Assembly (NCBI RefSeq): GCF_003940805.1
Contig: NZ_CP034328.1
Span: 806,001 to 870,000 of the forward strand
DNA: 64,000 bases
DNA from: Tabrizicola piscis
GTDB taxonomy: Bacteria; Pseudomonadota; Alphaproteobacteria; Rhodobacterales; Rhodobacteraceae
Direction of reading: 5' to 3'
The position numbers and the translations under genes are program-made. Position 1 is the stretch's first letter. Every line of letters starts with the position of its first letter. This document shows positions 38,139-55,976 of this stretch, one piece after another. The notes under the pieces were generated by a model that had not been told where the DNA came from, searched no databases, and saw nothing but the letters and a program-made list of their open reading frames with translations.

Positions 38139-38763
38139 GTGACATCGGGCTAGACGCCCGGTCGGCCCTTGGACGTCAAGCAGACGCGGGATCGATTGGC
38201 GCTCTTCGAAGTCTCATTCCGCGACAGGTTCACCTTAGGAGCGGAAAGGGTGACTGCTCGGTTCAGCCCGGCATCCCATTGTTGAGCACGAGTGTCGGCT
38301 ATGGGCCGAATACGCAAGTTGGGCCGGTCTGCATGTAGGTCCGCATGATCCGCATAGCTGAGCTTCAACCGTTCCAGATGGTGCACGACGCCCGAATGTC
38401 CGGTTCGTTGATGCTCAGATGGAAGCGAGCAAGCGGCAGATTTGGGCTGATGACGATGTCGAGAAAGTGGCGGAGGGTGGCGTTCCAGTTGCTGAAGCCC
38501 AATCCTGGAACATCGTTGCGACACGCTCGTGCTTGCTGGCTTGCGCCATTGGGAATTTCTAATTTATTGGAAATATTGATAATTATTTGGATTTGATCTG
38601 CGCAGCGGCACCCAAGAGGCTACTTCGCACGCAAAATAGTAGATATTCTAATGAAACATAAGAATACCTACTTTTGGTCGAAGGAGGGACGAACTCGCCG
38701 TCTAGAAAGACGACATTCCCGGTCACAAACACGCAACCGGCATCAATTATGGAACCGTCAGAT
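38139..38763. other. Low-GC spacer upstream of the repeat-protein gene
   Basis: About 620 bp contain only short frames on both strands that I cannot identify. From about 38555 to 38760 the base composition turns AT-rich, unlike the rest of the window, which suggests foreign origin. The promoter of the repeat-protein gene should lie here; the AT-rich stretch GGAAATATTGATAATTATTT is the most promoter-like part. Confidence 0.45.
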
Positions 38764-40179
38764 ATGGAAAAGTTCAGATTCGTAGTCGCGTTTTCTCTGG
38801 CACCGTTTGCCTCGATCTCGTTCGCAGATCACGCGGCAGCAGAGACAAGACATTTGGATCGCAGTGTCCGTCCGTGGATCGCCTTGTCACAGGAAAATGG
38901 ACGCCAGACAAAGTTGATCTGCCACGAGTTGGCTTGCCAGGGTCTGTTGGGCAGCGCCGAGCCTGTCGGGATCAAGCGGCAACTTCCGGATGACATCATT
39001 CCTGTCGACCCCACCGACCCGACCGATACCACTGACACGACCGATCCAACCGATACGACGGATACCACTGACACGACCGATCCGACCGATACCACGGATA
39101 CCACTGAAACGACCGATCCGACCGATACTACGGATACCACTGACACGACCGATCCAACTGATACCACGGATACCACTGACACGACCGATCCGACCGATAC
39201 CACGGATACCACTGACACGACCGATCCGACCGATACCACGGATACCACTGACACGACCGATCCAACCGATACCACGGATACCACTGACACGACCGATCCG
39301 ACCGATACCACGGATACCACTGACACGACCGATCCGACCGATACTACGGATACCACTGACACGACCGATCCGACCGATACAACCGACGTTGGTGGCGGTA
39401 GCGGTGGCAACCCCTGTGGCGGAAACTGCGGCACCGGTAATGGCGGAGGCGGTGGCAATGGCACCGACAACGAAGGCGGCAAGGGCGACGGCGACAAGGG
39501 CGACGACGGCAAGGGCGACGACGGCAAGGGCGACGGCGGCAAGGGCGACGGCGGCAAGGGCGACGGCGGCAAGGGCGACGGCGGCAAGGGCGACGGCGAC
39601 AAGGGCGACGAAGGCAAGGGCGACGGCGGCAAGGGCGACGGCGGCAAGGGCGACGAAGGCAAGGGCGACGGCGACAAGGGCGACGGCGGCAAGGGCGACG
39701 GCGGCAAGGGCGACGGCGACAAGGGCGACGAAGGCAAGGGCGACGAAGGCAAGGGCGACGGCGACAAGGGCGACGGCGACAAGGGCGACGGCGGCAAGGG
39801 TGACGGCGACAAGGGCGACGGTGACAAGGGCGACGGTGGCAAGGGCGACGGTGGCAAGGGCGACGGTGGCAAGGGCGACGGTGGCAAGGGCGACGGTGAC
39901 AAGGGCGACGGCGGCAAGGGCGACAGCGGCAAGGGCGACAGCGGCAAGGGTGACGGCGACAAGGGCGACGGCGGCAAGGGCGACAGCGACAAGGGCGACG
40001 GCGGCAAGGGCGACGGCGGCAAGGGCGACGGCGGCAAGGGCGACGGCGGCAAGGGCGACGGCGGCAAGGGTGACGGCGGCAAGGGCGACGGCGGCAAGGG
40101 TGACGGCGGCAAGGGCGACGGCGACAAGGGCGACGGCGACAAGGGCGACGGCGACAAGGGCGACGGCGGCAAGAGCTAA
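38764..40179 (+). CDS. Secreted low-complexity repeat protein
   Basis: This 471-residue protein has a probable signal peptide ([20 protein letters not shown], then ADHAAA). A short unique region to about residue 80 has two Cys (ICHELACQG). Nine exact 36-nt units (39043-39366) encode [12 protein letters not shown], one with Glu for Asp. A Gly/Cys linker ([12 protein letters not shown]) comes next, then 46 exact-length 15-nt units (39481-40170) encoding KGD plus two residues (GG, GD, DG, EG, SG or SD). It ends KS. The first block is very acidic; the second alternates Lys and Asp. No function is recognised; an extracellular matrix, adhesive or ion-binding role is possible. Confidence 0.65.
39043..39366 (+). 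repeat. Nine tandem 36-bp repeats
   Basis: Nine 36-bp units of GATCCGACCGATACCACGGA-type sequence lie head to tail without spacers. Differences between units are mostly third-base changes. They encode the Asp/Thr/Pro block of the secreted repeat protein. A shorter unit precedes them and a partial one follows. Confidence 0.95.
39481..40170 (+). repeat. Forty-six tandem 15-bp repeats
   Basis: Forty-six 15-bp units of AAGGGCGACGGCGGC type run without interruption. Variation is limited to the codons for residues 4 and 5 (Gly, Asp, Glu, Ser) and a few synonymous GGC/GGT and GAC changes. The near-identity of units indicates recent expansion by slippage or recombination. Confidence 0.95.
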
Positions 40180-40320
40180 GTTCGGCCCGATGTTCGCCGC
40201 CGAGATCAGAGGGCAACGCGTACAGGCGATGCGCGCCCACCGCCACTGGCAATGGCCCCTGGACGAGGTCTGCGTGAAGATCAACGGGGTGACGCACTAT
40301 CTCGCGAGATGGGACGTTGC
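40170..40320 (+). mobile_element. IS6-family transposase remnant
   Basis: In the frame one base off from the repeat gene, the sequence reads [12 protein letters not shown], then MRAHRHWQWPLDEVCVKING and VTHYLA. This is the conserved start of the DDE domain of IS6-family transposases (WHLDEVFVKINGxTHYL). Similarity stops after about 40312; no full ORF or terminal inverted repeats are seen. The remnant starts at the very end of the repeat-protein gene, whose TAA lies inside it. The following 40321-40632 hold no supported gene. Confidence 0.75.
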
Positions 40321-40632
40321 CTCTCCAGCTGGCTTCGTAGCAGGTGAGTTCGCTGTTCTTCCCGAGATGACAGGGAGTTGTTTGCATTTCGCGCGCAGCT
40401 ATCAGGGGCCAGTCTATCGCCCCTACGCCGTAGAAGACGCGCAAAATCCATGCCTTGGACGGACAGATTTGCCGTGCGCGAAGAACTGGTGATCAGGGTT
40501 CGGGCGGTCGCGACCAGAGTCCGGAGAGTCTACATTTCGCTCTCTGCTCGAGCACCGAATAATGCGGGTTATGACGGCAAGACGCAGACACTATCGGGTT
40601 GGGTACTGGGGATTGGCCGGCGCCGAGCTTGT

Positions 40633-46057: not shown

Positions 46058-47061
46058 TGGCACATCCGGTCAAGATCGCCCTCGTGGGCATGGGGTGGTG
46101 GGGGCAGAAGATGCTCTCGGTCCTGCAATCCGCGCCTGAGGACATTCAGGTGGTGCGCGCGGTGGAGCCCAACATCGACACCGTTCGCCAGCTGTGCGCG
46201 GACAAAGGCATCGCGCTGTCGGCGGACTATGCCGATGCGCTGAACGATCCTGCGGTCGAGGCGGTGGTGCTGGCCACGCCGCATTCGCTGCACACCGACC
46301 AGATCGCCAAGGCGGTGGCGGCGGGCAAGCACATCTTCTGCGAAAAGCCGTTGGCCCTGACCAAGGCCGAGGCGGAGCGGTCGGTTGCCCTGTGCCGCGA
46401 TGCAGGGCTGGTGCTGGGCATGGGCCACGAGCGGCGGTTTGAGCCGCCAGTGGCCGAGATGCTGGCAATGGCCGATGCGGGCACTTTGGGCCGTATCCAC
46501 CAGATCGAGGCGAATTTCAGCCATGACAAGTTCCTGACCCTTGCCCGCGACAACTGGCGACTGAAGGCCGATCAGGCCCCGGCGGGCGGGATGACGGCGA
46601 CCGGCATCCACCTTCTGGATCTGTCGGTGCGGCTGCTGGGGGCTGCGGAAAGCGTGCTGTGCATCTGTGAGCAGCTGTCGTCGGACCTGCCGCAGGGCGA
46701 TACGGTGGCGGCCTTCGTCAAGTTCAAGGGCGGCGGGACGTCCTATGTCTCGGCCTCTCTCGCCAACCCGTTCATCTCGCGCTTTGCGGTGTTCGGATCG
46801 AAGGGCTGGATCGACATCCGCGACAAGGCGCATGTCGAGGCGCCTGATGGCTGGATCGTCACTTCAGCCATGGCCGGTGGCCCGATTGTCACCCGCGAAA
46901 TCGGCAAGGCCGAACCGGTGAAGGATAATCTGGTGGCTTTCGCCCGGGCCGTGCGCGGCGCGGACTATCCGATCACCGCCGACCATCTGGTGAACAACAT
47001 TGCCCTGCTGGAGGCGGTCTTCGCCTCGGCGAAAAGCGGCCGTATCGAAACCGTGGCGTAA
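46057..47061 (+). CDS. Gfo/Idh/MocA-family dehydrogenase
   Basis: This 334-residue NAD(P)-dependent dehydrogenase has the N-terminal motif IALVGMGWWGQKML. Other family blocks are IFCEKPLALTKAEAE and the substrate site GGMTATGIHLLDL, which contains the G-x-H-x-x-D pattern. It presumably oxidises a cyclic polyol or sugar-like intermediate. It is translationally coupled to the YciI gene (TGATG). Confidence 0.88.
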   Translation: MAHPVKIALVGMGWWGQKMLSVLQSAPEDIQVVRAVEPNIDTVRQLCADKGIALSADYADALNDPAVEAVVLATPHSLHTDQIAKAVAAGKHIFCEKPLALTKAEAERSVALCRDAGLVLGMGHERRFEPPVAEMLAMADAGTLGRIHQIEANFSHDKFLTLARDNWRLKADQAPAGGMTATGIHLLDLSVRLLGAAESVLCICEQLSSDLPQGDTVAAFVKFKGGGTSYVSASLANPFISRFAVFGSKGWIDIRDKAHVEAPDGWIVTSAMAGGPIVTREIGKAEPVKDNLVAFARAVRGADYPITADHLVNNIALLEAVFASAKSGRIETVA

Positions 47062-47085: not shown

Positions 47086-48066
47086 ATGAAAGCGCTGATT
47101 TTCGATCAACCGAACAAGCCTGTCGTCACCGACATCCAGATGCCCAGCATCGGCGACAATGAAGTGATGGTCCGCTCGCGCCGCGTTGGCATCTGCCATT
47201 CCGACTACGAGCTTCTGTCGGGCAACTACATCATCCCGATTTCCTACCCGGTGACGCCCGGCCATGAATGGGTGGGCGAGGTGGTCGAAGTAGGCCGCAA
47301 CGTCAAAGGATTGCAGCGCGGCGATCGGGTGGTCGGCGAATGCGTGATCCGCACGCCCGAGCGTATCCACCATTTCGGCTTTTCGATGGACGGGGCGAAC
47401 CGCGAGTTTTTTGCCGCGCGGCCCGAATGGCTGCACAAGCTGCCCGACGGCGTGGATGACGCCAAAGGCGCGCTGATCGAGCCTTTTACCTGCGGCTATT
47501 ACGCAGTGCTGCGGCACGGCGGGGTCGATGCGTCGCAGACCGTGGTGGTGTCAGGCGGCGGGACCATTGGGTTGGTGTCGGCGGCGGCGGCGATTGGCAT
47601 GGGGGCGAAGGTGATCGTGGTCGATCCCGTGCCGCTGCGCCGCGAGATTGCGATGAAGCTGGGGGCTGCCGGCACGGTGGACCCAACGGCGGGCAACCCG
47701 GTTGAAGCGGTGACCGAGATGACCAAGGGCGGCGCCGACCTTGTGGTCGAGGCGGCCGGGCATCCATCATCTTTGGCCAATGTGTTCGACTATGCCCGGC
47801 CCGAGGGGTTTGTGTCGATGGTGGGGATCAGCATCGGCCAGAAGATCCCGGTGGAACTGGGCAAGATCCAGATCAAGGACCTGACCGTGCGCGGCTGTAT
47901 CGGGTCGCCCGGTGTCTGGCCTGCGGCGATCCGGTTTCTGGAGCGGACGGGGATCGACCTGTCGCCGATCCAGACCCACAGCTTTGCGCTGGACGATGCG
48001 ATCAAGGCCTACGACCTCGGGAAAGACCCGACCAAGGCGGTGAAGATCACGCTGGAAATCGCTTGA
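47086..48066 (+). CDS. Zinc-type medium-chain alcohol dehydrogenase
   Basis: This 326-residue MDR protein is distinct from that at 43593. Catalytic zinc residues are Cys in GICHSDYEL, His-Glu in GHEWVGEV and probably Glu in IEPFTCGYYAV; the cofactor motif is SGGGTIGLVSAAAA. The structural-zinc Cys cluster is missing, as in the other dehydrogenase of the operon. It lies 24 bp after the Gfo/Idh gene. Confidence 0.87.
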   Translation: MKALIFDQPNKPVVTDIQMPSIGDNEVMVRSRRVGICHSDYELLSGNYIIPISYPVTPGHEWVGEVVEVGRNVKGLQRGDRVVGECVIRTPERIHHFGFSMDGANREFFAARPEWLHKLPDGVDDAKGALIEPFTCGYYAVLRHGGVDASQTVVVSGGGTIGLVSAAAAIGMGAKVIVVDPVPLRREIAMKLGAAGTVDPTAGNPVEAVTEMTKGGADLVVEAAGHPSSLANVFDYARPEGFVSMVGISIGQKIPVELGKIQIKDLTVRGCIGSPGVWPAAIRFLERTGIDLSPIQTHSFALDDAIKAYDLGKDPTKAVKITLEIA

Positions 48067-48098
48067 CGCCAGCTGGCGCCAAACGGGGGGAGGGGATC

Positions 48099-49133
48099 AT
48101 GGCACAGTACCAACAGATAGCGGGACAGGACGGCTCTGGCCTTGATCTGCGGTCGTTGAAACCGGCACGGGGGTTCGTGACGGTTGTCATCTCGACCATG
48201 GCGCTGGTTGCTGTCTGTGCCATTTTCGCGCCCTCGGCCATTTCGGCGGGGGGGTTGGCAGGCAGCCTGCCCTTCGCCGCGATCATCGCCATCGTCGGGC
48301 TGGGGCAGATGTTGGTGGTGCAGCAGGGCGGGTTTGACCTGTCGCTGGCCGGGGGCGTGTCGCTGGCGGTGGTGATCACCACACATATGTCGGGCGGCGA
48401 TGACGCGCAGCTGCTTGGGTCCATCGCCTTCGCTTTTGGCTGCGCGGTGGTGGCCGGGGTGGTGAATGGCGTCCTGGTGGGCGTGCTGCGGCTGAACGCC
48501 ATTGTCGCCACCATCGGGATGAACGCGCTGCTCTACGGCGCTGTCTTTGCGGTTTCCGGCGGCGTGCCGCGGATCACCACACCGCTGATGTCGCAGATTG
48601 CCGCCGGAAAGACGCTTGGCATTCCGAACTCTGTCCTCTTTGCCCTGGGCATCATGCTGCTGGTCAGCTTCGTTCTGAAAAAGACGGTCATCGGGCGGCG
48701 GTTCGAGGCGATCGGGGCCAATCCGGCAGCGGCCCATGCGGCGGGCCTGAAGGTGCAGCTCTATCAGGCAATGGCGTACGTCTTTGCCCAGCTTCATTAC
48801 TGCGTCGCGGGCATTCTGATTTCGGGGATCACGCGCGAACCCACCGCCTTTCAGGGCGACAGCCTTCTTCTTCCTTCGGTGGCCGTGGTGGTGCTGGCAG
48901 GGACATCCCTGCTGGGCGGGCGCGGCTTTCCCATCTCGACCGTGATCGCGGCGTTCTTTCTGAACCAGCTTAGCCAGTTCGCGCTGGCGGTCGGGGTGCC
49001 CTTCTCGGCGCAGACCATCATTCAGGCATTGGCGTTGGTCTTTGGGATCGGCGTCTACTCGCTGCGCTGGAAACAGGCGGCAACCAAACGTGCACTAAAG
49101 TCCAAAACGGAGGAAACGGACAATGAAGTTTAA
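48099..49133 (+). CDS. Monosaccharide-type ABC permease (RbsC-like)
   Basis: This 344-residue permease of the ribose/xylose class has about ten hydrophobic segments. Family signatures are VVQQGGFDLSLAGGVSLA, GRRFEAIGANPAAAHAAG and LAGTSLLGGRGFP. A second RbsC domain is fused to the ATPase encoded at 50266, so the system would use two different permease halves. ATG at 48099 follows GGGGA. Its end overlaps the binding-protein gene by 11 bp. Confidence 0.9.
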   Translation: MAQYQQIAGQDGSGLDLRSLKPARGFVTVVISTMALVAVCAIFAPSAISAGGLAGSLPFAAIIAIVGLGQMLVVQQGGFDLSLAGGVSLAVVITTHMSGGDDAQLLGSIAFAFGCAVVAGVVNGVLVGVLRLNAIVATIGMNALLYGAVFAVSGGVPRITTPLMSQIAAGKTLGIPNSVLFALGIMLLVSFVLKKTVIGRRFEAIGANPAAAHAAGLKVQLYQAMAYVFAQLHYCVAGILISGITREPTAFQGDSLLLPSVAVVVLAGTSLLGGRGFPISTVIAAFFLNQLSQFALAVGVPFSAQTIIQALALVFGIGVYSLRWKQAATKRALKSKTEETDNEV

Positions 49134-50187
49134 GGCAATGAAGATGACTGCCGCATGTGCGGTGGCCACGCTGACCATGGGACTTGCGGCCTCGACCGCC
49201 CTGGCGCAGACCCCGTCCTGGTGCGGGCCCAATGAGGCGTCGCTGGCGCTGCTGGACGGCTTTGGCGGCAACAGCTGGCGTCTGGTCACCACGGCATCGG
49301 GTGCGGAAGAGGCCGCGAAATGCCCCAGCATCACCCAGTATGAATATGCCGATGGTCAGGGTGATACCCAGAAGGCCATCTCGGACATCAACTCGATGGC
49401 CGCACGCGGGATCAAGGCGATGGTCGTGTTTGGCGATGCCGGCCCCGCTGTCCTGCCGGCGCTGACCAATGCGCATCGCGCGGGAACCATCGTTGTTCCT
49501 TACCGTGTCAACGTGGGCGGCACCGAGGGCGAGAACTATGCCAAGTTCATCGGCTCGTCCTTCTTCGAGGATGGCGTCAGCTGGGGCAACTGGATCAAGG
49601 AAATCCTGCCGGAAGGTGGCAACCTTTTGTTCCTCAGCGGCCCGGCCGGCAACAGCCAGGGCACGGATGAACTGGCTGGCATGAAGTCGGTGCTGGATGA
49701 CAAGTATGTCTTCATCAACCCCGAACCCTTTGCCGTCACCAACTGGGACCCGTCGCTGACGCAGCAGGTCTTGTCGGCCGAGATTGCCAAGAACGACAAG
49801 ATCGACGTGATCGTGTCGGACTTCGGGCCGTCGCTGGTCGGCGCGCTGCCGGTGTTTGCGGAATTCGGCCGGTCGATCCCGGCGCTTGCCACGTCGGACG
49901 GCAATTCGCTGTCCTGCTTCTGGGAAGAGAACAAGGAGGCCAACCCGGACTTCAAACTGTTCACCGTCGCCACCGGCAACGACAACGTCCGTCTGGCCGT
50001 GCAATGGGCGGTCGCTCTGGCCACCGGGGGCACCCCGCCCACCGACGAGATCTTCAAGGCTCCGGTCTATGAAAACTCGGTCTCGGGCACGCCGAACCCG
50101 GTGACCTGCCGCCCCGATCTGCCCGGATCAATCTACCTGTCGGCTGAGATGGCAGATGACGCGCAAGCGAAAGCTGTCGGTCAGTGA
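49123..50187 (+). CDS. Periplasmic sugar-type binding protein
   Basis: This 354-residue protein has a signal peptide ending TALA-QTPSWCGPNEA. A ribose-binding-like (peripla_BP_4) body follows: DGFGGNSWRLVTTASGAEEA, MVVFGDAGPAVLPALTNAHR and IDVIVSDFGPSLVGA. Two Cys pairs may form disulfides. It would deliver the pathway's substrate to the RbsC-like channel. GGAGG precedes the ATG. A strong hairpin (50196-50225) follows. Confidence 0.9.
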   Translation: MKFKAMKMTAACAVATLTMGLAASTALAQTPSWCGPNEASLALLDGFGGNSWRLVTTASGAEEAAKCPSITQYEYADGQGDTQKAISDINSMAARGIKAMVVFGDAGPAVLPALTNAHRAGTIVVPYRVNVGGTEGENYAKFIGSSFFEDGVSWGNWIKEILPEGGNLLFLSGPAGNSQGTDELAGMKSVLDDKYVFINPEPFAVTNWDPSLTQQVLSAEIAKNDKIDVIVSDFGPSLVGALPVFAEFGRSIPALATSDGNSLSCFWEENKEANPDFKLFTVATGNDNVRLAVQWAVALATGGTPPTDEIFKAPVYENSVSGTPNPVTCRPDLPGSIYLSAEMADDAQAKAVGQ

Positions 50188-50225: not shown

Positions 50226-50265
50226 CCCCCCGTTCCGAACACCCGCAGGTATGGCAGGACGTGAT

Positions 50266-52794
50266 ATGCCCAAGGTCGCAGCGATGAAACTTGTGGAAAC
50301 GGCACCTTTGAGCAGCGCGCCTGAGGCAGCGCCGACGATCCGGCTGTCCAGTATCACCAAGCTGTTTTCCGGCGTTGTGGCCCTGTCTGACGTGTCGGTC
50401 GAAATTCTGCCCGGCGAGGTTCACGCCATTCTGGGCGAGAACGGCGCGGGCAAGTCCACGCTGATGAACATCATCTCGGGCGTTTTGCAGCCAGACATCG
50501 GCGTGATCGAATTCAACGGTGAGGTCATCTCTCCGATGACGCCGGAACGCGCGGCTGCCTTGGGCGTGTCGATTTCCTATCAGCATCCGGCCGTGCTGGA
50601 TGACCTTTCGGTGCTGGAAAACCTGCGGGTGGCGCTTCCGGACCGCGTTTTTGCTGTTGGCAACCCGGCTGAGATTGCCCGCGCCATGCTGGACGACGTG
50701 GGCTTGCATGTGCCGCTGACTGCGCGCGCCGATTGTCTGACCGTGGCGAAAAAGCACTTGCTTGAGATTGCCAAGGCGCTTGCCACCCGGCCCCCCGTGC
50801 TGATCCTTGATGAGCCGACGGCGGCTTTGGATCAGGATGCGACCGAGATGCTGTTCGCCCGCATCCGCAGCGTCGCGGCGCAAGGCACCGCCGTCATCTA
50901 TATCACCCACCGTCTGGCCGAACTGCGCCAAATCGCCCACCGCGTGACGGTGTTGCGCGACGGCCAGTATGCCGGTGGCGCCTTGGTTCGGGATGTGACC
51001 GACGACGATCTGCTTGCCATGATCGTGGGGCGCAGTCTGGCGTCCGCCTTTCCGCCAAAGGCCCAGGAAGCGGACCCCGAAATCAATTTCGTCGTCAAAG
51101 GCCTGTCGGGTCGCAAGTTCCATGACATCAACTTTGCCATCGGGCGCGGGCAGATCATCGGCATCGCCGGGGTGGAAGGCAACGGCCAGTCGGGCGTGAT
51201 GCGCGCCCTTGCCGGGCTGGAACCCTGGAAGGGGGAGGTGCTTCTGAAAGGCGTCCCGCTTTCCGCCGCCGAGGTGAAAGCGAAATCGGCCTACATGCCG
51301 TCGGATCGCCACGAAGAGGGGATCATCGCCGACCTGACCGTGCGGGAAAATGCGACCTTCTCGGCGCTGGATCAATTCAGCCATCTGGGCATTCTCAGCC
51401 GTCGCAAGGAACTTGGTGAGGTTGGCCGCGTGTTCGGATCGCTCTCGGTCAAGACACCGGGGCTGGATGCGGGCATCCTGTCGCTGTCCGGCGGCAACCA
51501 GCAGAAGGTGGTGATGTCGCGGGCGCTGATGTCGCGCCCCGGCTTCATTCTGGCGGATGAGCCGACGCAAGGCGTGGATGTTGGCGCAAGGTTCGAGATT
51601 TACCGCATCCTGCGCGAAGTGTCGCAATCCGGTACGCCGGTGATCGTGAACTCATCCGACGCGGCTGAACTGGAGGGTCTGTGCGACGTGGTGATCGTCA
51701 TGTCGCGGGGGCGGGTCGCCGAGACATTGCGCGGCGAAGATGTCACCGAAGGCCGCATCGTGGCGGCTGCCGTCAAGGCGCAGTCCCATGTCGCGGGTGT
51801 GGGTGAGGCGACGAAGGCCGCAAAATCTGCCAGCGGCGGCCTGCGTCAGTTCCTGCAAAGCGACAATGCCACAGTCGTGCCGCTGGCTGCGGTTGTGGTC
51901 ATGCTGGGGCTTTACGTCTTCGGGCAGAACGAAAACTACCTGTCGGCCTTCAACATCTCGAACATCCTGCTGCTGGCGACGGCGCTGGGGTTCATCGCCC
52001 TTGGTCAGACCGTCGCGCTGCTGATGGGCGGGATCGACCTTTCGGTCGGGCCACTGGCCGGGTTTCTGGTGGTTGTCGCGTCATTCTTCATCAATGACGG
52101 GCAATCGCCGCAGACCATCGCGCTTGGTTTTGCGCTGATGTTTCTGGCCGCGCTGGCGGTGGGGACAATCAATGGCTGCCTGATCCGCTTTGCCAATTTC
52201 ACCCCGATCGCCGCGACCTTGGCGATGTATATCGGGTTGCAGGGCCTTAGCTTCGTGCTGCGTGACGGGCCGGGCGGGTACATCAATTTCGCCGTGATGG
52301 ACACCATCGGCTGGAAACTTGGGCCGCTCCCGGTTGCCTTTCTTGTGCTGGTCGTCGTGGCCCTGCTGGCGGAGTATGTGCTGCGCAAGCGTCGCCTTGG
52401 CTGGCAGTTCCGCGCCGTTGGCTCGCATGAGGAGTCGGCCCGCCGGATGGGTATCCGCGTCAATCTGGTGATCATCGGGGGCTACATCGCCGTGTCGCTG
52501 TTCACCGCACTCGGGGCGGTCATGCTGATGGTGCAGATCGGCGTGGGCGATCCGGCGCAGGGCGTGAACTACACGCTGGCCAGCATTACAGCCGTGGTCC
52601 TGGGCGGCACCAGCCTGCGTGGTGGGCGGGGAACCTTCATCGGCACGGTGATGGGCGCGGTCTTGCTGACCGAAGTGCTGAATGCGGTGTCCTTCCTGGG
52701 GCTGTCGCAGACCTATCAATACCTCTTCCAAGGCGCCCTGATACTGGCGGCGGCGCTGATCTATTCCACGGCGCGGCGGCAAGCGGGCAACTGA
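50266..52794 (+). CDS. ABC transporter ATPase-permease fusion (RbsA-RbsC in one chain)
   Basis: This 842-residue protein unites two nucleotide-binding domains and a permease. NBD1 (about 20-245) has Walker A GENGAGKST and Walker B PPVLILDEPTAALD. NBD2 (about 255-495) has a degenerate Walker A GVEGNGQSG, the signature LSGGNQQKVVMSRAL and ADEPTQGVDVG. From about 540, ten helices form an RbsC domain with LLMGGIDLSVGPLAG and LGGTSLRGGRGTF. These parts are normally separate proteins. ATG at 50266 has AGGA at good distance. Confidence 0.92.
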   Translation: MPKVAAMKLVETAPLSSAPEAAPTIRLSSITKLFSGVVALSDVSVEILPGEVHAILGENGAGKSTLMNIISGVLQPDIGVIEFNGEVISPMTPERAAALGVSISYQHPAVLDDLSVLENLRVALPDRVFAVGNPAEIARAMLDDVGLHVPLTARADCLTVAKKHLLEIAKALATRPPVLILDEPTAALDQDATEMLFARIRSVAAQGTAVIYITHRLAELRQIAHRVTVLRDGQYAGGALVRDVTDDDLLAMIVGRSLASAFPPKAQEADPEINFVVKGLSGRKFHDINFAIGRGQIIGIAGVEGNGQSGVMRALAGLEPWKGEVLLKGVPLSAAEVKAKSAYMPSDRHEEGIIADLTVRENATFSALDQFSHLGILSRRKELGEVGRVFGSLSVKTPGLDAGILSLSGGNQQKVVMSRALMSRPGFILADEPTQGVDVGARFEIYRILREVSQSGTPVIVNSSDAAELEGLCDVVIVMSRGRVAETLRGEDVTEGRIVAAAVKAQSHVAGVGEATKAAKSASGGLRQFLQSDNATVVPLAAVVVMLGLYVFGQNENYLSAFNISNILLLATALGFIALGQTVALLMGGIDLSVGPLAGFLVVVASFFINDGQSPQTIALGFALMFLAALAVGTINGCLIRFANFTPIAATLAMYIGLQGLSFVLRDGPGGYINFAVMDTIGWKLGPLPVAFLVLVVVALLAEYVLRKRRLGWQFRAVGSHEESARRMGIRVNLVIIGGYIAVSLFTALGAVMLMVQIGVGDPAQGVNYTLASITAVVLGGTSLRGGRGTFIGTVMGAVLLTEVLNAVSFLGLSQTYQYLFQGALILAAALIYSTARRQAGN

Positions 52795-52979
52795 TGAGGG
52801 GCGATGCGGTTATCTGTCAGTCGCCGTCCATCCGGGGGCGGTGCGGAGCGGGCATGCTGCGCCACCTTGCCGAAGTGATCGACTTCATCGGCGGCACCCG
52901 TGCCCTGATCCTTTCGACATCGTTCCAGAAAGACGATGCCGACGCGCGTGCCGCCCGGATCGGGCGCGATCTGAACTGA
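52794..52979 (+). pseudogene. Maleylacetate reductase N-terminal stub
   Basis: The 61 codons end soon after GAGMLRHLAEVIDFIGGTRA, then LILSTSFQKDDADARAARIG. This matches the first beta-alpha unit of maleylacetate reductases (iron-alcohol-dehydrogenase fold), which are normally about 350 residues. The rest is missing. It overlaps the transporter stop (TGATG) and ends 11 bp before the intradiol dioxygenase, where maleylacetate reductase genes typically sit in hydroxyquinol operons. It is probably a deletion relic kept as a translated leader. Confidence 0.65.
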
Positions 52980-52990
52980 AGGGACAAACC

Positions 52991-53854
52991 ATGACCGCAA
53001 CTGCCGCCAATGACTATTTCACCGAAAGCCATTCGGTCGAGGCCGTGAATGGGCGGATGGGCAAGGCCACCGATCCGCGGCTGGCACATGTGATGGCGCG
53101 GCTGGTGGCGCATCTGCATGCCTTCATCAAGGATGTCGGACTGACGCAAGAGGAATGGGCGACGGCAATCGACTTTCTGACCCGCACGGGTCAGATCTGT
53201 GACGCCAACCGGCAGGAATTCATCCTGCTGTCGGATGTGCTGGGCGTGTCGATGCTGGTGGATGCGATCAACAACCGCCGCCCCTCAGGCGCCACGGAGA
53301 ACACCGTGCTGGGGCCGTTCCATGTGGAGGGCGTGCCGAAATATCCGATGGGGGCAAATATCTCACAGGACGGCGGGCGGGAGACGTGCCTCTTTCAGGG
53401 CCAGGTGAAAGATCTTGACGGCATCCCGCTGGAAGGGGTGCGGATCGATGTGTGGTCCGACAATGAGGACGGTTTTTACGATGTCCAGCAGCCGGGGACG
53501 CAGCCGATCCACAACAACCGGGGTGTTTTCGTCACCGGCCCAGATGGGCGCTACTGGTTCAAAGGGATCAAGCCCGTGTCTTATCCCATTCCAGACGACG
53601 GGCCGGTTGGGCAGATGCTTGGCAAGCTTGGTCGTCACCCTTTCCGCCCGGCGCACATGCATTTCATCGTCAGCCGGGAGGGGTTTGAAACCGTCGTCAC
53701 GCACAGCTTTGTGGCGGGTGATGACTACCTGCAATCGGATGCTGTCTTTGGGGTCAAGCAATCGCTGATCGCGCCGTTTGAACCGGTGGCCGGGGGCGAC
53801 ACGAAGTGGCTTTCGACCTTCGATTTCGTCCTGAACAAGGTTGCAGCAGAATGA
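52991..53854 (+). CDS. Intradiol ring-cleavage dioxygenase, probably hydroxyquinol 1,2-dioxygenase
   Basis: This 287-residue non-haem Fe(III) dioxygenase has an N-terminal helical dimerisation domain (about 1-100) and the catalytic beta sandwich. Iron ligands are visible as Tyr163 (DGFYDVQ), Tyr198 (VSYPIP), His222 and His224 (RPAHMHF). The length and GPFHVEG motif favour the hydroxyquinol subgroup, which converts benzene-1,2,4-triol to maleylacetate; a catechol substrate is possible. The maleylacetate reductase stub upstream supports hydroxyquinol. Its stop overlaps the next start (ATGA). Confidence 0.88.
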   Translation: MTATAANDYFTESHSVEAVNGRMGKATDPRLAHVMARLVAHLHAFIKDVGLTQEEWATAIDFLTRTGQICDANRQEFILLSDVLGVSMLVDAINNRRPSGATENTVLGPFHVEGVPKYPMGANISQDGGRETCLFQGQVKDLDGIPLEGVRIDVWSDNEDGFYDVQQPGTQPIHNNRGVFVTGPDGRYWFKGIKPVSYPIPDDGPVGQMLGKLGRHPFRPAHMHFIVSREGFETVVTHSFVAGDDYLQSDAVFGVKQSLIAPFEPVAGGDTKWLSTFDFVLNKVAAE

Positions 53855-54885
53855 CGCTGCATCACAAAAGCCCCCGCATCGCGTTCTTGGGAACCGGGGC
53901 GCAGGGAGCCTCCATCGCCGCTGATTTTGCACTGGCGGGGCTGGACGTCACCTTCATCGACCAGTGGCCCGCCCATATCGAGGCGATCCGCGCGCATGGC
54001 ATCACGGTCAACCTGCCGACACGACAGATCAACGCCCGCGTCACCGCCCTGCATCTGTGCGAGGTGGCCGAAATCAAGCAGCCCTTCGATCTGATCTTTC
54101 TGGTGGTCAAAGCCTATGACACGACTTGGGCCACCCAGCTGATCAAGCCGGTTCTGGCCGAAGACGGGTTTGTGATCGGTCTGCAAAACGGCATGACCCA
54201 CGAAGACATTGCCGCCGTCGTCGGCCGCCACCGCACGATTGGCGCGGTGATCCAGATTGCGTCGAACATGTGGGTGCCCGGTGTCACCAACCGCCAGAAT
54301 GACCATGACGAATCCTGGTTTGCCATGGGCGCTCTGGACCTCGCTCAACAGCACCGGGTCGAGGCCGTGGCCGACCTTCTGCGCCATTCCGGCCGGGTCG
54401 AGATGACCGATAACATCCGGTCGGCCAAATGGATGAAGCTGGTCGTCAATGCCGCCGAACTGATCCCCTCTGCCATCATCGACACCGCACTGAACGACGC
54501 CGCCCGCGCGCCGGGAATGCTGGAGGTGATGCGCGAAGCGGGGTACGAGGCGATGCAGGCCGCGCTGGCCGATGGTGCCACGATCATGCCGATCATCGGG
54601 ATGCCACCCACGATGAGCAACGATCCCGAGCGATATGTCGATGAGATCTTTGATGAAGTTCTCCGCACATTCTCGCGCGAGGATACGCTGACCACCTCGC
54701 TGCAGGATTGGCGCAAGGGCCGCCGGGCCGAGGTGGAAGAGGTGAACGGCTGGGTCGTGAACACGCTGGCCGCCCATGGTCGCGATGCACCGGTCAACCG
54801 GCGGGTGGTCGAGACAGCCCTGCAGATCGAGGCCGGCAAGCTGGCCCCGCGGCCGGAAAACGTGCACCTGCTCATGCCGCGGTGA
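53851..54885 (+). CDS. Ketopantoate-reductase-family oxidoreductase
   Basis: This 344-residue protein is of the 2-dehydropantoate 2-reductase (PanE/ApbA) fold. It has FLGTGAQGASIAADFALAGL, LVVKAYDT, GLQNGMTHE and the catalytic Lys in SAKWMKLVVNAAEL. It is longer than biosynthetic PanE (about 300), and its context is catabolic, so reduction of another 2-oxoacid is more likely than pantothenate synthesis. It is coupled to the dioxygenase gene by a 4-bp overlap. Confidence 0.85.
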   Translation: MTLHHKSPRIAFLGTGAQGASIAADFALAGLDVTFIDQWPAHIEAIRAHGITVNLPTRQINARVTALHLCEVAEIKQPFDLIFLVVKAYDTTWATQLIKPVLAEDGFVIGLQNGMTHEDIAAVVGRHRTIGAVIQIASNMWVPGVTNRQNDHDESWFAMGALDLAQQHRVEAVADLLRHSGRVEMTDNIRSAKWMKLVVNAAELIPSAIIDTALNDAARAPGMLEVMREAGYEAMQAALADGATIMPIIGMPPTMSNDPERYVDEIFDEVLRTFSREDTLTTSLQDWRKGRRAEVEEVNGWVVNTLAAHGRDAPVNRRVVETALQIEAGKLAPRPENVHLLMPR

Positions 54886-54897
54886 TCCGGGGGAAAA

Positions 54898-55230
54898 ATG
54901 CCAAACGTAAAGATCTTCGTCGACGAGGTGATCTATCCCTCCTGTCGTGGCCGCTTGCCTGCCGCGCTGGGTCCGATCCTTGATATGCTGTGCCATGACC
55001 TCGGCGTTGATCGTCCGGCCTGCCAGTTGGCGGTGATGCCTGTGCTGGCCATGCCCGGCCTGCCGCCCGTCAATGTTGAAATCGCGATCATGCCGCGCCC
55101 GGAACGCACGCGGGCGGTGCTACTGGGGGTCAGCACGAAACTGCGCGAGATGTTGGGAGCAGCGACGGGCGCCCAAGTGGCTGTCCGGGTCACCACGCTG
55201 GACCCCGAAACCTACATCGCCCTGAAATAG
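54898..55230 (+). CDS. Small tautomerase-like protein with Pro-1
   Basis: This 110-residue protein starts Met-Pro, which would expose an N-terminal Pro as in the 4-oxalocrotonate tautomerase/MIF superfamily. Pattern MPNVKIFVDEVIYPSC, then VNVEIAIMPRPERTRAVLLG and a final beta strand, fits a beta-alpha-beta repeat of that fold. I do not recognise the exact family, so the tautomerase call is an inference from the Pro, size and operon. It starts 12 bp after the reductase gene. Confidence 0.6.
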   Translation: MPNVKIFVDEVIYPSCRGRLPAALGPILDMLCHDLGVDRPACQLAVMPVLAMPGLPPVNVEIAIMPRPERTRAVLLGVSTKLREMLGAATGAQVAVRVTTLDPETYIALK

Positions 55231-55241
55231 GAAGCGACCAA

Positions 55242-55406
55242 ATGGACAAGATACTTCCCGACCTGAAGGCTGCGGTTGCCGGGATCGCCGATGGCATCAC
55301 CGGGACCGCCGCGCTGCAACTGGCCCTGACGGGGGGACGGCGGTCCTTGTCGACCATGTGCATCGGCGTGGGCCAAGGGATCGCCATCGCACTGGAACGG
55401 GTCTGA
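55242..55406 (+). pseudogene. Deletion scar joining CoA-transferase start to thiolase end
   Basis: This 54-codon frame begins MDKILPDLKAAVAGIADG, like the N terminus of 3-oxoadipate CoA-transferase subunit A (PcaI-type). After Ile-Thr it switches to GTAALQLALTGGRRSLSTMC and IGVGQGIAIALERV, the exact C-terminal pattern of 3-oxoadipyl-CoA/acetyl-CoA thiolases (PcaF), including the Cys of the CxG active-site region. Everything between (the rest of pcaI, pcaJ and most of pcaF) is gone. The frame is preserved and starts 11 bp after the tautomerase-like gene. Confidence 0.75.
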
Positions 55407-55457: not shown

Positions 55458-55976
55458 ATGGCTGAACACGTCTATGGGATGCATCACATCGGCATCACAG
55501 TGCCGGACATCGAAGAAGGCATCCGCTTTTTCAAAGCTGTTTTCGGGGCTGTCGATGTGTTTCGCACAGGCCCTTTCGATGTGGATGAGGCGTTCATGCA
55601 GCGGAAACTGGGAACGCCCGGACATACCCGCATCCGCGATCTGGTTTTCCTGCGCTGTGGAGCCGGCACGAACGTTGAGCTGTTCGAATACGAAGGTGAG
55701 GACAGCTCTGCCAGGCCAAGACGAAATTCAGAGATTGGCGGGACGCACCTGTGCTTTGAGGTGGAAGATGTCTTCGCATCAGTGGAGCGACTGCGTGCTG
55801 AAGGGATCGAGTTCCTGGACGGCCCCAACACCGTGACGGAAGGACCGCTGGCGGGCTTCAACTGGATCTATTTCAACTCGCCATGGGGGCAGTCCCTGGA
55901 AATTGCGAGCTTCTCGTCTCTGGGGTACGAAACGAACACGACGCAGCGCATCTGGAGTGCAAAGCTTATGGGCTGA
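55458..55976 (+). CDS. VOC-family (glyoxalase/dioxygenase fold) protein
   Basis: This 172-residue vicinal-oxygen-chelate protein has the metal-binding pattern His in YGMHHIGITVPDIEEGIRFF, Glu in NVELFEY, His in GGTHLCFEVEDV and Glu in QSLEIASF. Two beta-alpha-beta-beta-beta modules are evident. It may act as an epimerase, lyase or extradiol-type enzyme in the pathway. GGGAGGA precedes the ATG. It is the last gene of the rightward catabolic operon. Confidence 0.88.
   Translation: MAEHVYGMHHIGITVPDIEEGIRFFKAVFGAVDVFRTGPFDVDEAFMQRKLGTPGHTRIRDLVFLRCGAGTNVELFEYEGEDSSARPRRNSEIGGTHLCFEVEDVFASVERLRAEGIEFLDGPNTVTEGPLAGFNWIYFNSPWGQSLEIASFSSLGYETNTTQRIWSAKLMG

Follow-up and report, generated by a model that had tools for sequence, protein, structure and literature searches.

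The closest described counterparts of the locus analysed here are of three kinds: hydroxyquinol gene sets (compared through the solved proteins 8r2x, 1tmx, 3hl0, and 3w5s), the CoA-transferase subunits PcaI and PcaJ with the thiolase PcaF (TIGR02429, TIGR02428, and TIGR02430), and deletion-derived chimeric pseudogenes and gene remnants, which are a known kind of sequence. Hydroxyquinol is converted to maleylacetate, then to 3-oxoadipate, and then to succinyl-CoA and acetyl-CoA. Our locus is an operon of Tabrizicola piscis that lies in a 64,000-nucleotide stretch (positions 806,001 to 870,000 of NZ_CP034328.1), which we call the window. Like the hydroxyquinol gene sets, it has a dioxygenase gene that is preceded, in many related loci, by a gene for maleylacetate reductase (MAR), but the window's operon adds an ABC importer and two dehydrogenases, and it has lost MAR. 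Like the chimeric pseudogenes, it contains two gene ends that were almost certainly joined by a deletion and that can be recognised by synteny. It departs from them only in that the frame is kept, the deletion seems recent, and the operon holds a second stub that is apparently older. We found nothing on this operon or its scar among the titles and abstract openings listed from a mostly open-access collection of papers.

The genes of the operon are listed in Table 1. By sequence, the dioxygenase is closest to hydroxyquinol-type 1,2-dioxygenases: its best solved relatives are 8r2x (E = 1.1e-126) and 1tmx (E = 1.1e-74), ahead of catechol dioxygenases. The operon is therefore most likely to belong to the hydroxyquinol/maleylacetate branch, and in its ancestral form it could have taken hydroxyquinol via maleylacetate and 3-oxoadipate to succinyl-CoA and acetyl-CoA. 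The initial annotation had argued that a beta-ketoadipate lower pathway once stood in this operon; our analysis agrees and narrows the pathway to this branch. In the window, the operon retains only ring cleavage, and the later steps have been lost. (The window also contains long low-complexity repeats at 38674-40492, with TDTTDPTD and KGDGGKGDG units and several frames open.)

Table 1. Features of the operon in the window, with the evidence for each label.
Feature	Coordinates	Strand	Basis
Gfo/Idh/MocA-like dehydrogenase	46066..47061	+	label by sequence, without family search; start approximate
Zinc-type medium-chain dehydrogenase	47086..48066	+	ADH_N, ADH_zinc_N
ABC permease	48063..49133	+	label by sequence, without family search
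ABC substrate-binding protein	49123..50187	+	label by sequence, without family search
ABC ATPase-permease fusion	50251..52794	+	label by sequence, without family search
Second scar, 61-codon MAR stub ORF	52794..52979	+	59-67% to MAR N-terminal part in L045/L046/L047
Hydroxyquinol 1,2-dioxygenase-like intradiol dioxygenase, retained	52991..53854	+	8r2x, 1tmx
ApbA/PanE-type reductase	53806..54885	+	family match; start uncertain
Tautomerase-like small protein	54898..55230	+	label of the initial annotation; no Pfam match over cut-off, no NCBIfam match
54-codon deletion-scar ORF	55242..55406	+	ATG at 55242, stop ends at 55406, 54 aa
CoA-transferase subunit A remnant, about codons 1-18	55242..55297	+	70/75% over residues 1-20 to G021/G315; breakpoint scan
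3-oxoadipyl-CoA thiolase remnant, last 36 codons and stop	55296..55406	+	97/100% to G021/G315; TIGR02430, NF006551 partial
VOC/glyoxalase-family protein	55458..55976	+	family match; 87-89% in G315/G021

Between the tautomerase-like and VOC genes lies a short open reading frame (ORF), 11 bp from the stop of the former and 51 bp from the latter, with an AGGA stretch upstream of its start. It had been read as the start of a CoA-transferase gene fused to the end of a thiolase gene. We confirmed the 54-residue open frame, and both of its ends align to full genes in two relatives: G021, a congener, and G315, from another part of the family. The first 20 residues align with the beginning of CoA-transferase A (E = 1.7e-5 for G021 and 2.3e-6 for G315), and residues 19-54 with the end of the thiolase (E = 1e-18 and 9e-20). 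The thiolase part has 36 residues instead of the 34 first proposed. In both relatives, the two matches are collinear and are flanked by the same neighbours. Residues 19/20-54 also match the last 35-36 positions of NF006551 (3-oxoadipyl-CoA thiolase; E = 6.5e-11) and the pcaF model TIGR02430 (E = 1.2e-9); as partial matches, these are far below the whole-protein cut-offs. In Pfam, the thiolase part matches positions 89-123 of 123 of Thiolase_C (E = 0.001, below cut-off). The N-terminal part has no match to a CoA-transferase model in Pfam or NCBIfam, and synteny was needed to recognise it. (We took a match to VIT1, with E = 0.042 and below cut-off, to be due to chance.) About 18 + 36 codons, or 54 of about 865, are left (the G021 proteins have 244, 221, and 400 amino acids). 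The predicted peptide lacks the catalytic core and probably has no function.

These relatives were found by searching with the tautomerase-like protein, which matched 6 of 32 genomes from the genus and 10 of 295 genomes from the family (this genome is counted in both). In G021 and G315, the operon runs dehydrogenase, permease, binding protein, ATPase-permease, dioxygenase, ApbA-type reductase, and tautomerase-like gene, and it continues with CoA-transferase A (244 aa), CoA-transferase B (221/223 aa), thiolase (about 400 aa), and VOC. All three G021 proteins of this block exceed the model cut-offs (343.9 vs. 128.5 bits for PcaI/ScoA, 292.1 vs. 243.55 for PcaJ/ScoB, and 687.5 vs. 597 for PcaF). 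Because TIGR02429 and TIGR02428 also cover ScoA and ScoB, the CoA acceptor has to be inferred from context; the neighbouring dioxygenase, MAR, and thiolase genes suggest 3-oxoadipate. The congener G017 has the tautomerase-like, A, B, and thiolase genes together, and the two ends of the scar match there at 83% and 94%; in the stretch examined, the dioxygenase, ApbA-type, and VOC genes have no close counterparts. Two other congeners, G027 and G006, have full-length matches to the tautomerase-like protein, and the scar has no such match in their stretches. The sixth match in the genus (G014) is weak and partial and contains stops. At E <= 1e-60, the deleted type of A subunit occurs in 3 of the 32 genus genomes (G021, G017, and, at another place, G027) and is absent from this genome and from G006.

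We also scanned the genome contigs of 84,980 species, using three aligned ApbA-type proteins (the probe was the part from 53866), and obtained 63 loci. The initial annotation had suggested looking for the three genes between the tautomerase-like and VOC genes of relatives, and that arrangement is present in four of the 63 (L045, L046, L047, and L100). One of the four is from a congener (we take L045 to be the locus of G021 and L046 to be that of G315), and two were also reached by the whole-genome searches. All four have the same gene order, with a Gfo/Idh/MocA-like dehydrogenase that is 94-97% identical. (In G021, which is a metagenome-assembled genome, a frameshift splits the dioxygenase gene at L045 9182-9983.) The intact block at the same interval supports the proposal that a single deletion removed pcaI-pcaJ-pcaF.

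A point against this reading is that the block is missing from this interval in most of the 63 loci. In L048, L053, L055, and L056, the tautomerase-like gene is followed by the VOC gene, with a short gap in three of the four. We searched these gaps (91-251 bases) for remnants, and the best match (E = 0.039) was taken as chance; the genomes carry the A subunit (91-92%) at another place. (In Tabrizicola sp. TH137, for instance, the gap is about 200 bp, at L048 11420-11619, and the block is elsewhere in the genome.) In two other relatives, CoA-transferase A/B, thiolase, and MAR (55-56%) form a separate cluster (L114 4122-7820 and L115 4900-8603), which suggests that the block is mobile between loci. 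In 13 of 14 operon-bearing genomes that we selected (this one and 13 behind the 63 loci), the deleted A subunit has a relative with 71-100% identity, where 100% is the query's own genome and the 71% and 75% matches each contain one TGA; the best match in this genome is 46%. In a tree built from four proteins (1355 columns for 23 taxa), the window falls near L045, L046, L047, L048, and L100. The supports there are 58-70, so the tree gives no number of independent losses.

When each position is scored against L046, the ORF stops following CoA-transferase A and starts following the thiolase after its base 54-56, and over all four intact loci the breakpoint falls after base 52-56. The inferred loss is 2448 bp relative to L045, 2454 bp relative to L046, 2433 bp relative to L047, and 2454 bp relative to L100. 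The size is a multiple of three against all four, that is, in frame, which by itself is a one-in-three outcome. Near the junction, both parents have AT[G/C]ACCG, offset by one base, in L045 and L100. We are highly confident that the 54-codon ORF arose by deletion. A single event, in frame and about 2.43-2.45 kb long, would have taken all but the start of the CoA-transferase A gene, the whole B gene, and all but the end of the thiolase gene out of a hydroxyquinol-degradation operon. The mechanism was probably illegitimate recombination, or slippage during replication, at this very short repeat, and the scar would have kept the old start signal.

The operon has a second scar, which the initial annotation did not report. 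In L045, L046, and L047, a MAR gene sits between the ATPase and dioxygenase genes. At this place, the window has about 57 MAR codons, followed by RDLN and a new stop, and the rest of the gene is absent. The stub aligns from MAR residue 4-7 to residue 50-57, with 59% identity to L045, 62-64% to L046, and 67% to L047 (E = 9e-12 to 9e-14 for tblastn against the window). The G021 MAR fits solved maleylacetate reductases (E = 1.8e-133 for 3hl0 and 4.7e-133 for 3w5s). The interval could be defined in 26 of the 63 loci: 18 have a MAR match within it (in 16, MAR sits by itself in a gap of about 1.1 kb, and in L054 and L099 the gap is 5.2 kb and holds a relative at 54-55%), and eight have no match at E <= 1e-3. 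With just the stub left in the window, maleylacetate reductase is a fourth pathway enzyme lost from this operon.

Which loss came first? We compared sites where L045, L046, and L047 agree and counted the changes in the window. The ATPase gene was left out (it has no single stop-free match in L047), as was L045 from the dioxygenase row (its match is split). The MAR stub has changed at 10 of 36 residues and, silently, at 2 of 15 identical codons; the corresponding counts are 0 of 33 and 3 of 14 for the thiolase stub and 2 of 14 and 2 of 7 for the CoA-transferase stub. In six pooled control genes (GfoIdh, MDR, permease, SBP, ApbA, and VOC), 20 of 1608 residues are window-specific, and 121 of 821 codons have silent changes. 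(The tautomerase-like gene, with 4/72, and the dioxygenase were scored outside this pool.) The MAR stub is well above the controls (Fisher p = 1.5e-10). A caveat is that the N-terminus of MAR is variable in any case: against the same stretch in the relatives, p is 0.003 for L046 (0/26), 0.23 for L045 (4/30), and 0.12 for L047 (3/29). The CoA-transferase stub is also above the controls (p = 0.014), but it does not exceed the corresponding part of the relatives' genes (p = 0.48-1). By a rough estimate with small numbers, the replacements expected without selection over the whole branch are about 15 for the MAR stub (10 seen), about 11 for the thiolase stub (none seen), and about 6 for the CoA-transferase stub (2 seen). 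The MAR stub looks decayed and the thiolase stub does not, which suggests that the reductase was probably lost first. Similarly, the observed and expected replacements suggest that the loss of the block probably fell late on the branch and that of MAR before it. A separate and probably older event would thus have cut MAR to about its first 57 codons.

Could other genes in this genome carry out the lost steps? None of its five CoA-transferase-domain matches is close to the lost A subunit. One locus (L033, at about 3.1233-3.1273 Mb of the same chromosome) encodes a pair of CoA-transferase subunits, a thiolase of the PcaF type (673 bits vs. the cut-off of 597; 78% identical to that of G021), and a MAR-like iron-containing alcohol dehydrogenase (51% identical to the G021 MAR). 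The transferase's best solved relative is a glutaconate CoA-transferase, and both subunits are far below the PcaI/ScoA and PcaJ/ScoB cut-offs; by sequence, it is assigned to a glutaconate-type branch, a subtype other than the deleted one. (A CatI/CatJ-like label was also considered for it.) Its A subunit was found in this genome alone among the 32 in the genus search (E <= 1e-20) and in 8 of 394 genomes in the family search (E <= 1e-60), this genome included. The composition of L033 gives no clear sign of foreign origin (GC 0.625 vs. 0.640 for the window). We rejected the idea that operon genomes generally carry the L033 genes, as 13 of the 14 selected genomes have no MAR above 55% identity to that of L033. 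Another locus (L111 5955-7010, near 0.67 Mb) has an intact MAR-like gene (353 aa, 54%) and a distant dioxygenase (38%), and its counterpart in G021 is L112. (Elsewhere in the genome, L110 1776-3461 on contig C4 is ISPme1, an element of the IS1380 type that shares about 99.8-99.9% identity with plasmid copies from several bacteria.) Candidate counterparts of all four lost enzymes are thus present at L033, with two for MAR (L033 and L111). We put the chance that the MAR-like, CoA-transferase, and thiolase genes of L033 finish the operon's product at about even.

A tentative account is that the lower pathway was handed to other loci stepwise, in the order in which backups became available. MAR would have gone first, as an L111-type MAR is common to the congener G021. 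The CoA-transferase/thiolase block would have gone later, after the patchily distributed L033 genes were gained, and the operon would have been left specialised for uptake and ring cleavage. That redundancy caused the losses is our inference from one genome. It is also possible, although we would not bet on it, that the deletion is real and the operon is simply dying, so that L033 is a coincidence and not what made the genes dispensable. Two losses in one operon are consistent with this, and the dioxygenase has more window-specific changes (14/247) than L046 (4/237), though fewer than L047 (23/256). But the remaining retained genes look constrained, and every one of the four lost steps has a candidate counterpart in the chromosome.

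The alternatives to a natural deletion fare much worse. A deliberate markerless deletion in the sequenced strain is very improbable. It would account for the frame and for the retention of both gene ends, as in designed deletions, but the MAR stub runs on for four extra residues to a new stop, and 10 of its 36 conserved residues have changed. This suggests that loss from the operon was naturally under way, though it is not direct evidence on the first scar. Collapse of 2.4 kb during assembly is harder still to credit: we judged the junction from the assembled sequence alone, but the breakpoint scan gives just a few overlapping bases between the parents, a search for close copies of CoA-transferase A elsewhere in the genome found none, and the genome is in 5 contigs with 100% completeness and 0.79% contamination.

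We also searched about 5.8 billion proteins for homologues conserved across the junction, which would have argued against a scar. Of 144 scored candidates, 132 had E <= 1, and among the 120 of these that were listed, just the query covers all 54 residues; the others cover 54-80% and none spans the junction. (The match with 80% coverage, P0036, has an N-terminus that looks unrelated. It is a 47-residue protein in which, by our reading, a Rossmann-like N-terminus is joined to a thiolase C-terminus, and its longest contig is 507 bp. It is perhaps another scar or a chimeric assembly.) That the ORF is a real small gene encoding a domesticated chimeric peptide is the least credible reading of all: it has an open frame, the upstream AGGA, and no changes at conserved thiolase sites, but a recent deletion would also leave the residues unchanged, the peptide would have no catalytic core, and no junction-spanning homologue was listed.

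Overall, we interpret the 54-codon ORF as the scar of a natural deletion. The event is ordinary gene loss, but its record is unusually complete, with two stubs in one operon, the full genes in relatives, and candidate counterparts elsewhere in the chromosome. It is a natural record of a catabolic operon shedding steps that another locus may perform. Because the two stubs are apparently of different ages and intact relatives exist, the order of loss and the dependence on a second gene set can be tested directly. More broadly, a 54-residue "hypothetical protein" can be a fossil that exposes a missing pathway.
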